This document shows, piece by piece, positions 27,174 through 31,838 of a DNA stretch of 56,760 nt (its first letter is position 1; every line of letters starts with the position of its first letter). The translations under genes were made by a program, and so were the position numbers. The DNA lies in the NCBI GenBank assembly GCA_902518835.1, contig CABYHH010000001.1, positions 108,052-164,811 on the forward strand, in the 5' to 3' direction. The notes under the pieces were generated by a model. That model saw only the letters and a program-made list of their open reading frames with translations, was not told where the DNA came from and searched no databases. The DNA comes from an uncultured Pelagibacteraceae bacterium (GTDB taxonomy: Bacteria; Pseudomonadota; Alphaproteobacteria; Pelagibacterales; Pelagibacteraceae).

Positions 27174-27803
27174 TCACTGATTTTTTGAAACTTCATACTC
27201 GAAATTTTGAGTAGACTCATTGACTTGTAAAAGTTTTGCTCCGTTTTTAGTATGAAATTTTGTTGCCATTTCTGTAAGAGGAGACAAAGTAACCAATCTA
27301 TTTAGATGGTTTGATTTTTTAATTTTTTTAAACACTTCTTTTACAATTAATTTACCACCTCCTCGTTTTTTTGACCAGACTGTATATGCGATCGCAATTT
27401 TCCCCACATTTTGTCCCCTTTGAGTACTTTGTAAAAAAGCATCATGACTAAATTTATCTAATTCATCAATATTTTTAGGGATTTTATTGGTGTAGGCGAA
27501 ACACATTACCGCGTGAATTTCTCCTTTGAATTTTACACCAAAAATTTTTCGCCCATAACTTAGTCTAAAGTCATTATCAAGTTCGGGTCTTACCGGATCC
27601 TCACTAATATTACACTTTTTTAATTCAACCAGTTCAGCACCTTTGATCCAATCAAAAAAATTACCAATATTTTTTCCTATTATTTGTTTATTTTTTCTTA
27701 TCCTAGCTTTAATTCTAGGTTTAAATTTTTTTGGATTTTTAAAATTACTTTCTAAGTACTTAGAAACTAATTTTTTCTTAACTATTTTAAATATCTCTCT
27801 CAT
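27174..27803 (-). CDS. Protein of unknown function, possibly GNAT-related (209 aa)
   Basis: Very basic N-terminus (Lys/Arg-rich to residue 45), then a mixed alpha/beta body. FRLSYGRKIFGVKFKGEIHAVMCFAY, seen in two pieces, looks like the beta-hairpin of a GNAT acetyltransferase, and LSPLTEMATKFHTKNGAKLL resembles the last part of such a fold. The usual acetyl-CoA loop (Q/RxxGxG/A) is at best weak (STQRGQNVGKIA). The assignment is therefore tentative. It sits between a small membrane-protein gene (seven bases) and the amidotransferase gene. Confidence 0.5.
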   Translation of the reverse strand: MREIFKIVKKKLVSKYLESNFKNPKKFKPRIKARIRKNKQIIGKNIGNFFDWIKGAELVELKKCNISEDPVRPELDNDFRLSYGRKIFGVKFKGEIHAVMCFAYTNKIPKNIDELDKFSHDAFLQSTQRGQNVGKIAIAYTVWSKKRGGGKLIVKEVFKKIKKSNHLNRLVTLSPLTEMATKFHTKNGAKLLQVNESTQNFEYEVSKNQ

Positions 27804-27809
27804 AAAATA

Positions 27810-27974
27810 TTAAAAGTACAATAAAGCGAGTATAGCGACAATAACTATAACAAAGATAAGTATTGCGATATAATTAATCTTTATTTCAAATTTTTTATAT
27901 ATTTTTTCGCTTATTTTTTCCCAAAATAAAACAATTAAAAAAATTAAAATCGCAGGTATTATAAACTTAAGCAT
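27810..27974 (-). CDS. Small two-helix membrane protein (54 aa)
   Basis: ATG at 27974, stop 27812-27810. Two hydrophobic helices (FIIPAILIFLIVLFW and IAILIFVIVIVAILALLYF) are joined by a Lys/Glu-rich linker. It starts 12 bases after the regulator gene's stop and ends six bases before the next gene, with the same orientation as both. This operon placement is the main support. No family is recognised. Confidence 0.5.
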   Translation of the reverse strand: MLKFIIPAILIFLIVLFWEKISEKIYKKFEIKINYIAILIFVIVIVAILALLYF

Positions 27975-27985
27975 AATTTTATTTG

Positions 27986-29416
27986 TTAATTTTTATCACC
28001 GACGTAAACAGAAACGCCTCTAGAATTAATATCTACATCAAATTTTTTATGTAGAGGAGGAAAAGCTCTTTGGGAACAGTCTAATCTATCGCATGTTCTG
28101 CAAGAGACACCAATTGGAATTTCTGTTGATTTATCATTAATATTCAAATTTTCAGTATAAATAAAATCTTTGGCATACTTTGCTTCACAACCCAATCCAA
28201 TTGATAAAATACTTTTTGATTGACCAAATCTACCAATTCCCTTTTCAACAGTTCTTGCAATACATACATATTTTTCACCATTGGTCATTTTGCTTACAGC
28301 CGCTTGAATTACACCTGGTCTTGTTAAAGCAGAGTATACATTCCATCTTGGACATGCTCCTCCATATCTAGGAATTTCTATACCAGATAATGAAAATCTC
28401 TTTGAAATATTTCCAGCCATGTCAACTCTTAAAAAATGAAAAGGAATGCCTGGTAGTTTTGGATCCTGTAGGCATGTTACTCTATGAGCAACTTGTTCAA
28501 ATGAGGTTGCAAAAGTGTTTTGTAATAATTCCAAATCATACTTTAATTTTTTACATTCTGAGTGAAAAGGTTTGTAAGGCATCAAAATCGCGGCACCACA
28601 ATAATTTAATAAAGCAACCTTTGTAAGTTTTTTTGACTCATCTGAGGGGAACGTAAAACCCGATAAATATTCATCAATTTCTTGAATAGCACCTTCTTGG
28701 GCTATTTGGGCAGCGGCATGAAGTTTTTTAGTTTCTAGTGAGCTATAGTCGCTTAACAGAAGTTCTTTAGAACCTTTATTATAAATTTTTGAAAAAGGCT
28801 TATCAGCATCTGGTATCACATCTTTAACCACTATCTTATATTCAGATTTAAGATATTCACAAAGAGCTATATATCTTGTGCGATTATTTTTCTGAACTTT
28901 TTCAAAAACTTTATTTGCGAACTCTTCTAATTTTGGAAAATAGTTTTTATTTTCTTGTAGAAAATCTGAGATTACTTCGCCTGGAAAAGAATTTTTCCTG
29001 TTATCTACAATTTTTCCTGAAATTTTTTCAATTTTGTTAATTAACTCATGATCTTTTTTTTTTAAAATATCTCCAAGTCTCACAATTGCTCTTCCAATTT
29101 TTGGATTAGTTCCAACAAGATCCTTTACCTCTGGACCCAAGATATCAAGATCTTCAAATAACTTATCATCTAAAATTTCTGATAATGTATTCTCGAGGTT
29201 GACATCATCTTTTGAGGTTAATTGTGAAAGTTGAATATTTAATTTTTCACAAATCTTTAAAAGAAGATCTCCATCAATTTTTCTTTTTCCACCCTCAATT
29301 AAATTTAAATAACTAGGCGAAATATTAAGTTCTTGTGCTAGTCTATTCGCCTGAAGACCTAATTGGCGTCTAAAAGCCTTGATTTTTGGCCCTATTTTTA
29401 AATCAATTTGACTCAT
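27986..29416 (-). CDS. ScfR/PccR/RamB-type XRE regulator
   Basis: A 476-residue transcription regulator: an N-terminal XRE helix-turn-helix (IKAFRRQLGLQANRLAQELN, then ISPSYLNLIEGGKRKI), a central ImmA/IrrE-like (DUF955) domain, and a C-terminal DUF2083-type domain with a cysteine cluster (GVSCRTCDRLDCSQR). This is the layout of the short-chain fatty acyl-CoA regulators (PccR, RamB, PrpR). They control acetate, propionate and glyoxylate-cycle genes and bind TTTGCAAA-like sites. I start at Met 29416; the open frame upstream covers the operator region. It is divergent from aceA, its probable target, and TTTGTAAA-type sites lie between the two. Confidence 0.88.
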   Translation of the reverse strand: MSQIDLKIGPKIKAFRRQLGLQANRLAQELNISPSYLNLIEGGKRKIDGDLLLKICEKLNIQLSQLTSKDDVNLENTLSEILDDKLFEDLDILGPEVKDLVGTNPKIGRAIVRLGDILKKKDHELINKIEKISGKIVDNRKNSFPGEVISDFLQENKNYFPKLEEFANKVFEKVQKNNRTRYIALCEYLKSEYKIVVKDVIPDADKPFSKIYNKGSKELLLSDYSSLETKKLHAAAQIAQEGAIQEIDEYLSGFTFPSDESKKLTKVALLNYCGAAILMPYKPFHSECKKLKYDLELLQNTFATSFEQVAHRVTCLQDPKLPGIPFHFLRVDMAGNISKRFSLSGIEIPRYGGACPRWNVYSALTRPGVIQAAVSKMTNGEKYVCIARTVEKGIGRFGQSKSILSIGLGCEAKYAKDFIYTENLNINDKSTEIPIGVSCRTCDRLDCSQRAFPPLHKKFDVDINSRGVSVYVGDKN

Positions 29417-29433
29417 ATTTTCTATTAGTAAAT

Positions 29434-29514
29434 TTTGTAAATTTATATTTACAAAATTTTTCCACAATTTACAAGCTTTATTTACTTTTTTGTAGATTTT
29501 GTAAATCTTGTAAA
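29434..29514. promoter_or_regulatory. Array of TTTGTAAA-type half-sites between scfR-type regulator and aceA
   Basis: Inverted pair TTTGTAAA (29434-29441) and TTTACAAA (29448-29455), a single TTTACAAG (29468-29475), and three direct repeats at nine-base steps: TTTGTAGA (29489), TTTGTAAA (29498) and CTTGTAAA (29507). The PccR-type family is known to use TTTGCAAA half-sites; here C is replaced by T. The array sits just upstream of the regulator's start and of the small gene before aceA, as expected for autoregulation plus control of aceA. Confidence 0.75.
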
Positions 29515-29527
29515 TTATAAAGTTTAC

Positions 29528-29689
29528 ATGACTGATAAACAAAAAAACACTGAAAATGAGGCTCAAATCATAAGAAGTGAAGACTTAGCTAGACATAATA
29601 GCAGAGGTATTTACATGAGAGATGATCATTGTGATTGGGGTTCAAGTGGAATGAATGATTTAGCTGAGACGACCAACGAGTCTAACTAA
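29528..29689 (+). CDS. Small acidic/polar protein (53 aa) upstream of aceA
   Basis: ATG at 29528, stop 29687-29689. It is soluble, with many Asn, Asp, Glu and Ser; notable parts are LARHNSRGIYMRDDHCDWGS and the tail SGMNDLAETTNESN. The ATG lies 14 bases after the last TTTGTAAA half-site and 55 bases before the aceA start codon, in the same orientation, so it is probably co-transcribed with aceA. It is not a family I know. It could be a regulator-linked microprotein, or the frame could be a chance one. Confidence 0.45.
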   Translation: MTDKQKNTENEAQIIRSEDLARHNSRGIYMRDDHCDWGSSGMNDLAETTNESN

Positions 29690-29743
29690 ATCAACTTTCA
29701 ATTTCACACTTTCATTAAAAATTTAAAAGGGTAATTACCTATC

Positions 29744-31018
29744 ATGAGTGCAGAAAATATCTCATACGAACTAAAAAGATTTGCAGGTATTAAAAGAGAC
29801 TACACTCCAGAAGATGTTGAGAGATTAAGAGGGTCAATAAAAATAGAATATTCTCTCTGTAAACAACAATCAGTAAAGCTTTGGAAACTTCTAAATACTG
29901 AAAACTATATCAGTACCTTAGGATCCTTGTCGGGTAATCAAGCTGTTCAACATGCTAAGGCAGGCCTAAAATCAATTTACCTTAGTGGATGGCAGGTAGC
30001 TGCTGATGCTAACAGTGCTGGAGAGATGTATCCAGACCAATCTTTATATCCATACGATAGCGCACCAAAATTAGTAGAATCAATGAATAATGCTCTTTTA
30101 AGAGCAGATCAAATTCAGCATATGGAACTCAAAGATGGAGATATGAAAAAACAAAAAAGAATAGATTATATGTTACCAATAATAGCTGATGGTGAGGCAG
30201 GATTTGGTGGTCCACTTAACGTCTTTGAACTTTCAAAGAAATTTATTAAAGCTGGAGCAGCTGGAGTTCACTTTGAAGATCAATTAGCTAGTGAAAAAAA
30301 ATGTGGACATATGGGCGGTAAAGTTCTAGTTCCAACAGGGACTATGATAAAAAATTTAAAAGCCGCAAGATTGGCTGCTGATATTGCTGACGTTCCATTA
30401 ATCATATTAGCAAGAACAGATGCTAATGCGGCAAAACTAATTACAAATGATTTTGATGAAAATGATAAACCATTTTTAACTGGTAAGAGATCACCAGAGG
30501 GATTTTATTATGTCAAGTCAGGTATCGATCAAGCAATTTCAAGAGGGCTTGCCTATGCTCCTTATTCAGATTTAATATGGTGTGAAACAGCTACACCTAA
30601 TCTTGAAGAAGCAAAAAAGTTTGCCGATTCAATTCATGAAAAATTTCCAGGAAAACTTTTAGCATATAACTGTTCTCCATCGTTTAATTGGAAAAAACAT
30701 TTATCAGATAGTGAGATTGCTTCATTTCAAAAAGAAATCAGTAAACTGGGTTATAAATTTCAATTTATTACTCTTGCCGGATTTCATACTCAGAATATTG
30801 CAATTTTTGAATTAGCAGAAAAATATAAAAAAGAAGGTATGACAGCTTATTCAAAAATTCAACAGCAAGAATTTGCTAGAGAAAAAGATGGTTACACAAG
30901 TGTAAAACATCAAAGAGAAGTTGGTACTTCTTATTTCGATGCTGTTTCTAATACAATAAGTAGCGGGAAAAGCTCTACAACGGCAATGGATGGCTCTACA
31001 GAGTCAGAACAGTTCTAA
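29744..31018 (+). CDS. aceA: Isocitrate lyase
   Basis: A 424-residue enzyme that splits isocitrate into glyoxylate and succinate, the entry of the glyoxylate bypass. The family signature [14 protein letters not shown] with catalytic Cys is at about residues 185-198; [11 protein letters not shown] and [15 protein letters not shown] are also typical. A GGG-containing ribosome site lies about 14 bases upstream. Malate synthase is not in the window. The divergent ScfR/PccR-type regulator and its operator array suggest induction by acetyl- or propionyl-CoA. In SAR11, glyoxylate also links to glycine metabolism. Confidence 0.95.
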
Positions 31019-31070
31019 TAAAACAATTCCTCTTGTATATTAGTTTTTTACTGGCTCAGAGATGGGCCAG

Positions 31071-31838
31071 TTATGATTTAATATTGTATCCTTTTTTTAG
31101 GATGACACTTACAAAAGTTATACAAATCAGTAGAAAAAGAACCATGGTTCCAATACTTAGCCAAATATTAAAATCTGATATTCCATAAAATGAAAATCTC
31201 AATCCGTTTATTAAATAAACTACTGGATTAAAATAAGTCACTATTTGCCAAAACTTTGGCAACATATCTAAAGAATAGAGGCTCCCTCCTAAAAAAACCA
31301 TTGGTGTAATAACCAATGATGGGACAATCGACATTTGTTCGAAATTTTTACTTAATAGACCAATTAAAAAACCAAATAAAGCAAATGTAAAAGATACTAA
31401 AATTAATAAAAAAATCATCAATAGCGGAAATTGAACTTGAACATCAACAAAAAACATTGATGTTAAAAATATGACTATTCCAACAATCAATGTTTTAGTT
31501 GCACCGGCACTCACAAATGCCAAGACAATTTCAAAAGTTGATATTGGAGCAGCTAATATTTCGTAAATTGTACCATTAAACTTTGGAAAAAAAATTCCAA
31601 ATGATGTGTTGCTTATTGACTGAGTTAATAATGTTAACATTAATAACCCTGGCACAATATAAGAACCATAGCTAATACCGTCAATATTCTGAACATAACT
31701 TCCAATTACAGAACCAAAAACAATAAAATACAATGAAGTGGATATTACAGGAGATAAAAGAGATTGACCCAGTGTTCTTAGAAACCTATCCATTTCATGA
31801 AGATAAATCGACTTTAATCCATAATAGTTAATTCTCAT
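31071..31838 (-). CDS. ABC-2 type exporter permease
   Basis: 255 residues, six hydrophobic helices of the ABC-2 family, with the family's conserved segment GGSLYSLDMLPKFWQIVTYF and the NPVVYLINGLRF motif near the C-terminus. It works with the ATP-binding protein encoded just upstream (11-base overlap). ABC-2 exporters of this group (YadH-like) are annotated for drug or polysaccharide export; the cargo is unknown. If the frameshift in the ATPase is real, the transporter may not work. Confidence 0.85.
   Translation of the reverse strand: MRINYYGLKSIYLHEMDRFLRTLGQSLLSPVISTSLYFIVFGSVIGSYVQNIDGISYGSYIVPGLLMLTLLTQSISNTSFGIFFPKFNGTIYEILAAPISTFEIVLAFVSAGATKTLIVGIVIFLTSMFFVDVQVQFPLLMIFLLILVSFTFALFGFLIGLLSKNFEQMSIVPSLVITPMVFLGGSLYSLDMLPKFWQIVTYFNPVVYLINGLRFSFYGISDFNIWLSIGTMVLFLLICITFVSVILKKGYNIKS

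Follow-up and report, generated by a model that had tools for sequence, protein, structure and literature searches.

Introduction

Which protein reads the cluster of short repeats lying between a transcription regulator gene and the isocitrate lyase gene aceA of an uncultured Pelagibacteraceae bacterium, and with what effect on these two genes? The repeats belong to a 56,760-nucleotide stretch of the genome, which is the whole of the DNA analysed and is referred to below as the window. Among marine heterotrophs, SAR11 cells are described as the most abundant, with reduced genomes and few transcriptional regulators, and an operator with seemingly one target would here govern the choice between full respiration and the glyoxylate shunt, which saves carbon, thereby offering a testable control point. 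The literature, searched mostly below full-text depth, yielded no publication naming the regulator of this locus RamB; SAR11_1242 is mentioned there and SAR11_1241 was not found.

Genes flanking the gap

The following genes border the repeats:

27986–29416, minus strand: ScfR/RamB-like regulator, 476 aa, with HTH, IrrE-like (Peptidase_M78) and ScfRs C-terminal domains, the last containing CX2CX4C
29528–29689, plus strand: conserved small gene, 53 aa, with the core GxYxRDDHCDWGSSG, with a match in all 30 loci first collected
29744–31018, plus strand: aceA, isocitrate lyase, 424 aa (NCBIfam PRK15063, 723 bits, over the cut-off)

The regulator matches Pfam PF09856 (1.5e-58; 197.6 bits against a cut-off of 24), HTH_3 (42.1 bits against a cut-off of 23) and Peptidase_M78, combining the ScfR-family HTH with the ScfRs domain, and it aligns with the PDB entry for PrpR, 6cz6, over residues 68–466 (6.3e-63). 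Its CRTCDRLDC and GGACPRW segments align with the Fe–S cysteines of PrpR (CX2CX4C and the fourth, GAF-like-domain cysteine), and the retention of these residues predicts a [4Fe-4S] cluster in the window's regulator. NCBIfam, Pfam and the PrpR alignment agree with the initial annotation on the family of this neighbour. Against the NCBIfam RamB model NF038139 the protein scores 362 bits, under the 700-bit equivalog cut-off, so that it is RamB-like by its position and boxes and is not filed under that model. In a quick FastTree tree, built without support values and with one wrong entry (L099, for which a neighbouring frame was taken), the loci of the family stand beside the aceA-adjacent regulator L054.

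A longer regulator chain of about 563 aa with two HTHs was seen in eight of the 45 genomes of the genus that have a regulator match, some of these matches being partial (L017, L026, L028, L029 and L115–L118). Its bearers are scattered on a tree drawn without L099, L103 and L106, where the neighbouring frame had been picked: there are seven changes, at least four of them forced by starred branches, and 126 of 500 shuffles gave a number as low. This would fit repeated loss of an ancient tandem form, or more than one gain of it.

The region had initially been described as the gap between the regulator and aceA. This is right on the regulator side, but the other edge is formed by the small gene at 29528–29689 and not by aceA at 29744. 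Since the core of the small protein is retained in 55 of 55 loci while many codons vary synonymously, this frame is a protein gene, presumably the first gene of the aceA operon. The protein has no Pfam or NCBIfam match at 0.001, its structure prediction is uninformative and of low confidence (mean pLDDT 61.5, pTM 0.19), and when an alignment of 29 proteins was searched against 289 genomes of the class, it turned up in two, both from the genus of the window. At the equivalent position, other genera of the family have related small frames whose cores resemble DWGSSG or DWGSAG. In one other genus (L120, L121 and L123–L125) a different small frame, of the HNIESNCVSxxDDCYNETNSY type, was seen at this place, and in another (L053 and L127) both types stand in a row.

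Paired half-sites in the gap

The gap (29417–29527; 111 bases, 16% GC) extends from the regulator start at 29416 (minus strand) to the small-gene start at 29528 (plus strand). It holds seven TTTGTAAA-like half-sites at no more than one mismatch, on the plus strand at 29425, 29434, 29489, 29498 and 29507 and on the minus strand at 29448 and 29468. The six half-sites in 81 bases that had been noticed initially (29434 plus, 29448 minus, 29468 minus, and 29489, 29498 and 29507 plus at nine-base steps) are all present, whereas the seventh, at 29425, had been missed. The TTTGTAAA word is exact at 29434, 29448 and 29498 and has one mismatch at 29468, 29489 and 29507. The elements of the gap are as follows:

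29425–29432, plus strand: box A, half-site 1 (TTAGTAAA), a nine-base-step pair with 29434 (15/16)
29434–29441, plus strand: box A, half-site 2 (TTTGTAAA), exact, conserved
29448–29455, minus strand: inverted half-site C1 (TTTACAAA on the plus strand), TTTACA conserved and the last two bases less so (55 loci)
29468–29475, minus strand: inverted half-site C2 (TTTACAAG on the plus strand), conserved in the 55-locus set
29489–29496, plus strand: degenerate half-site B0 (TTTGTAGA), its TAGAT part mostly better conserved than TTTG
29498–29505, plus strand: box B, half-site 1 (TTTGTAAA), exact, conserved
29507–29514, plus strand: box B, half-site 2 (CTTGTAAA), conserved; start of box B 73 bp from that of box A
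29516–29521, plus strand: −10-like TATAAA of the putative small-gene/aceA promoter, conserved as GTAAATTATAaa

That these sites cluster by chance in very A+T-rich DNA and have no function is hardly credible, even if TTTGTAAA alone shows no clear enrichment across the window (20 occurrences against 14.6 expected, with 12 of 100 shuffles as high). In dinucleotide-keeping shuffles of the gap, the seven half-sites compare with a mean of 1.5 (p 0.0002, 1 in 5000), the three exact copies of TTTGTAAA with a mean of 0.12 (equalled in 0 of 5000) and the three nine-step pairs of at least 15/16 matches with a mean of 0.00 (0 of 5000). These three are the only pairs of this quality in the whole window, and only two of 5665 segments of 111 bases, taken at steps of 10 bases, contain at least seven half-sites, both at the gap. 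Given the lack of clear window-wide enrichment of the single word, the signal is the clustering of the half-sites and their nine-base step. The conservation of the boxes over the spacer in 55 related loci, given below, also argues against chance.

The last four bases of B0, TAGA, may open a −35 element, TAGATT (29493–29498). The space from there to the −10-like TATAAA at 29516–29521 is 17 bp, box B almost fills it, and the small-gene ATG follows six bases later. A strict sigma-70 scan found no promoter at the gap.

Conservation and spacing of the boxes

The gap set comprised 55 loci of the window's genus, including L090, whose genome bears another genus code; L098, with its regulator cut at a contig end, was left out of the gap comparisons. 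The order in these loci is pair A on the plus strand, C1 and C2 on the minus strand, pair B again on the plus strand and then GTAAATTATAaa, with pair A adjoining the regulator start and pair B adjoining the −10-like TATAAA. The half-site at 29425, one mismatch away from TTTGTAAA in the window, reads TTTGTAAA in 44 of the 55. The mean consensus frequency is 0.96 in the boxes (48 columns) against 0.73 in the other gap columns (51 columns, B0 included), and the rank test on 54 unique sequences gives p 4e-12, a value that serves as a guide only because the sequences are related.

Boxes A and B lie 73 bp apart in 47 of the 55 loci and 74 bp apart in eight; eight loci, in which the best automatic pair was B0–B1 and not B1–B2, were re-registered by nine bases. 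Both pairs are exact in 21 genomes, and the distance is 73 in 16 of these and 74 in five. Box B stands 30 from the small-gene ATG in 51 of 55 loci, so that, together with the A-to-B distance, the whole stretch is constrained in length, unlike the linker between the small gene and aceA, which varies from 26 to 82 bp.

The pattern of conservation also bears on the 13-base inverted repeat 29430–29442/29447–29459, whose arms are perfect in the window and which might act in the transcript as an RNA hairpin or attenuator. We give this explanation next to no weight: at columns 29454–29458 of the second arm no more than about 0.5 to 0.8 of the sequences have the consensus base while TTTACA stays, the region 27500–31500 has no Rfam match at gathering score, and the presumed start sites would leave the repeat untranscribed.

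In other genera of the family, 21 of 23 loci carry box A, reversed, close to where the regulator begins, and a box B oriented as in the window; the other two (L128 and L129) have no plus-strand pair. The A-to-B distance in the 21 is 72 (one locus), 81 (seven), 89 (three) or 90 (ten). A spacing of seven helical turns is therefore not universal, and DNA looping between the boxes is a suggestion only. The C2 half-site is present in loci from these genera as well, and in several of them a half-site on the minus strand follows box A at 31 bp, a distance close to the 32 bp seen in Paracoccus, which may represent the older layout.

Specificity of the paired site

An even spread of the motif over non-regulated regions, which the initial annotation had named as evidence against an operator, is not seen for the paired form. 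In 39 genomes of the genus there are 77 exact pairs, 59 of them in the regulator gap and spread over 38 genomes, the gap of G033 being without one. The 39 were drawn from 45 genomes, G013, G015, G017, G020, G032 and G050 having been left out for partial or weak regulator matches. Elsewhere there are 18 exact pairs (15 inside frames, one inside the regulator gene and two outside frames), and a reversed control pattern occurs seven times in the same genomes.

In the window's own genome (1.0 Mb, 86% complete) TTGTAAANNTTGTAAA occurs 20 times at no more than one mismatch, three of them in the gap. Fifteen of the other 17 places fall within frames of 100 codons or more. Of the two that do not, one is in a ribosomal RNA operon and one lies ahead of a RecG-like helicase gene, so neither of these two is a pair before acetate or propionyl-CoA genes, for which the initial annotation had proposed to search. 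The data look like those of a regulator with one main operator, although other targets may be missed because most genomes are incomplete and the relatives were scanned for exact pairs only. The exact pair was also seen to recur inside frames of one small protein family (CxCGxVxYxI...FTQACHC; L210, L213, L215, L217 and L219), which is probably a coincidence of codons.

Proposed mode of action

We consider it highly probable that the repeats are the operator to which the adjacent regulator binds, and its functional unit would be the pair of half-sites at a nine-base step (TGTAANNNNTGTAA). The fuller statement, that a divergent RamB-like regulator uses this operator to repress its own gene at A and aceA at B, seems to us probable when it is kept loose on the sign of control. 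That the protein acts mainly by repression is a view towards which we lean only slightly. Discrete conserved boxes over both presumed promoters fit the combination of aceA control and autoregulation that had been proposed at the outset.

Box A spans the region where the regulator gene starts, and protein bound there would cover the presumed −10 and cause autorepression. Box B lies between the presumed −35 and −10 of the small-gene/aceA operon, where a bound protein would exclude RNA polymerase and so repress aceA; from these two positions the regulator, once bound, would shut off both promoters. On the model of PrpR and Paracoccus RamB, it may be a tetramer with a pocket for CoA or acyl-CoA, able to hold the two boxes at once, and its predicted cluster would correspond to the [4Fe-4S] cluster known in PrpR (PMC6765138). 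A CoA thioester or the loss of the cluster might then change binding and open aceA.

The same regulator and boxes could also serve activation of aceA, with box-bound dimers contacting RNA polymerase and tetramers repressing until a CoA ester splits them; we take this to be a genuine possibility, though we incline against it. Paracoccus RamB is reported to activate the glyoxylate genes from two such boxes, methylmalyl-CoA shifting the tetramer, which is thought to be repressive, to a dimer (PMC10370305), and in the window, in keeping with many activated promoters, the putative −35 is a poor one and the scan accepts no sigma-70 site. However, box B sits across the presumed core promoter, directly against the −10-like hexamer, which is a usual location for a repressor, whereas the Paracoccus motif is described as lying 82 bp upstream of the gene (PMC10370305).

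Possible relation to the iron response

Repression of both genes by the adjacent regulator has a possible counterpart in expression data. In an array study of Ca. Pelagibacter ubique, the values reported for iron limitation are 1.58 for aceA (SAR11_1240; p 0.091) and 1.60 for the transcription regulator SAR11_1242 (p 0.054) (PMC2864753), and gene order suggests that SAR11_1242, two loci from SAR11_1240, is the window's regulator. Joint repression would predict that the two genes rise together; the changes on the array are small. A joint rise fits an Fe–S repressor, and it also fits control by Fur or an influence of the iron-uptake genes that lie next to these genes within one contiguous block. 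Cell-specific isocitrate lyase expression of SAR11 is likewise reported to be higher in iron-poor water than in water fertilised with iron (PMC6618146, citing Beier et al. 2015).

It may be supposed that the SAR11 Fe–S RamB-like regulator acts from two boxes separated by seven helical turns to keep the aceA operon and its own gene closed, and that in iron shortage the cluster is lost and both open. We hold this to be distinctly doubtful, and against it the PrpR cluster is reported to resist EDTA and to be required for activation (PMC6765138). If true, such a switch would be the missing molecular basis of the rise of the SAR11 glyoxylate shunt under iron limitation, and an Fe–S regulator on this operator is a concrete candidate behind the iron response of SAR11 isocitrate lyase.

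The same response might be attributed to another regulator, such as Fur or Irr, to which the repeats would then belong. In a 2011 study, relaxed searches gave motifs resembling Fur boxes upstream of two genes, SAR11_1242 and a putative Fur gene (PMC3090418), and both SAR11_1242 and aceA are higher in iron limitation (PMC2864753). Yet three Fur-box models are reported in the former study to have no match in the HTCC1062 genome (PMC3090418), the exact pair is almost confined to the regulator–aceA gap, and the nine-base step recurs at ramB-linked gaps of other alphaproteobacteria. Sites of Fur, Irr or a similar protein are thus very improbable, and the adjacent regulator remains our preferred reader of the boxes.

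The boxes in other alphaproteobacteria

The pattern T[TG]ACA-N4-T[TG]ACA, on either strand, had been fixed before the loci of other alphaproteobacterial families were inspected. It matches six of their 15 glyoxylate-linked gaps (neighbours: aceA by match in 13, malate synthase in two) against a shuffle mean of 0.045, and nine are without it; in the same gaps, a step of 8 gives two matches, a step of 6 gives one and the remaining steps from 5 to 14 give none. Twelve gaps of further relatives gave one match to the preset pattern, four at step 8 and one at step 5. A post hoc consensus reached shuffle p < 0.05 in 10 of the 15 gaps, and we prefer the preset pattern because that consensus was tuned after the matches were known. 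Among 75 gaps, mostly of Rhodospirillales/Acetobacteraceae, the preset pattern was found in 20 against a shuffle mean of 0.04, a set that is biased, since its members are related and its query (L058) was chosen for carrying a box. When the 57 of these 75 gaps left after removal of near-copies were searched for motifs de novo, the best one was GTGAATAATTCACATTGC, which is not the RamB box. An GTSAATAATTSACATTGC-like element, different from the RamB box, was seen strongly conserved in many ramB-linked gaps of Acetobacteraceae (L138–L203), mostly about 110 bp from the regulator start.

These gaps bear on the idea that the C-to-T variant of the half-site is a lineage-specific form in an A+T-rich genome. 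Matches with TGTAA/TTACA at nine-base steps, found in the six gaps of other families, occur at 38–53% GC, and half-sites of the T form are also found in the tested RamB boxes of Paracoccus, so that this view of the origin of the T form is most likely wrong. In one gap (L056), TTACAAGATTTACA equals the B box of the window at 29500–29513, TGTAAATCTTGTAA, exactly on the other strand. Four class-level gaps (L060, L066, L067 and L076) contain TTTGCAAA, and thus both the T form and the TTTGCAAA form exist in the regulator family.

Comparison with known systems

Among the closest known parallels is the class 2 RamB arrangement of alphaproteobacteria, in which, as in Paracoccus denitrificans and in the window, the regulator is divergent from the glyoxylate genes and the boxes consist of two half-sites at nine-base steps, here TGTAA/TTACA. 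The binding oligonucleotide of P. denitrificans is reported to hold two near-identical boxes, TGACAAACCTTACA and TGACAATACTGACT, with an 18-bp spacer, and mutation of the boxes to abolish both expression and binding (PMC10370305). We read these boxes as TTACA/TGACA half-sites nine bases apart; in P. versutus and P. aminovorans the words are largely retained, and the P. versutus relative is 31% identical to the window's regulator (149 of 479 aligned positions). In Paracoccus, the two boxes run in the same direction beside the regulator start, whereas the two-box 18-bp spacer (32 bp start to start) is absent from the window's genus, where the pairs start 73–74 bp apart. In the window itself the distance is 73 bp, the second pair falls on the presumed core promoter, and there are additional inverted half-sites as well as a small gene ahead of aceA.

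Among ScfR-family proteins, Mycobacterium PrpR is reported to recognise a 17-bp site, TTTGCAAA-n-TTTGCgAA, which also has a nine-base step (PMC6765138, PMC3420887). PrpR thus shares with the window's regulator two half-sites at this step, related sequence and conserved Fe–S cysteines, but its words are palindromic TTTGCAAA whereas those of the window are directional TTTGTAAA, and its described targets are prpDC, icl1 and ramB. PccR of Rhodobacter, mentioned in PMC10370305, belongs to the same ScfR family. Set beside these systems, the operator is of a known kind, and its layout departs from the one described for Paracoccus in the promoter-proximal second box 73–74 bp away, in the extra inverted half-sites and in the small conserved gene of the operon.
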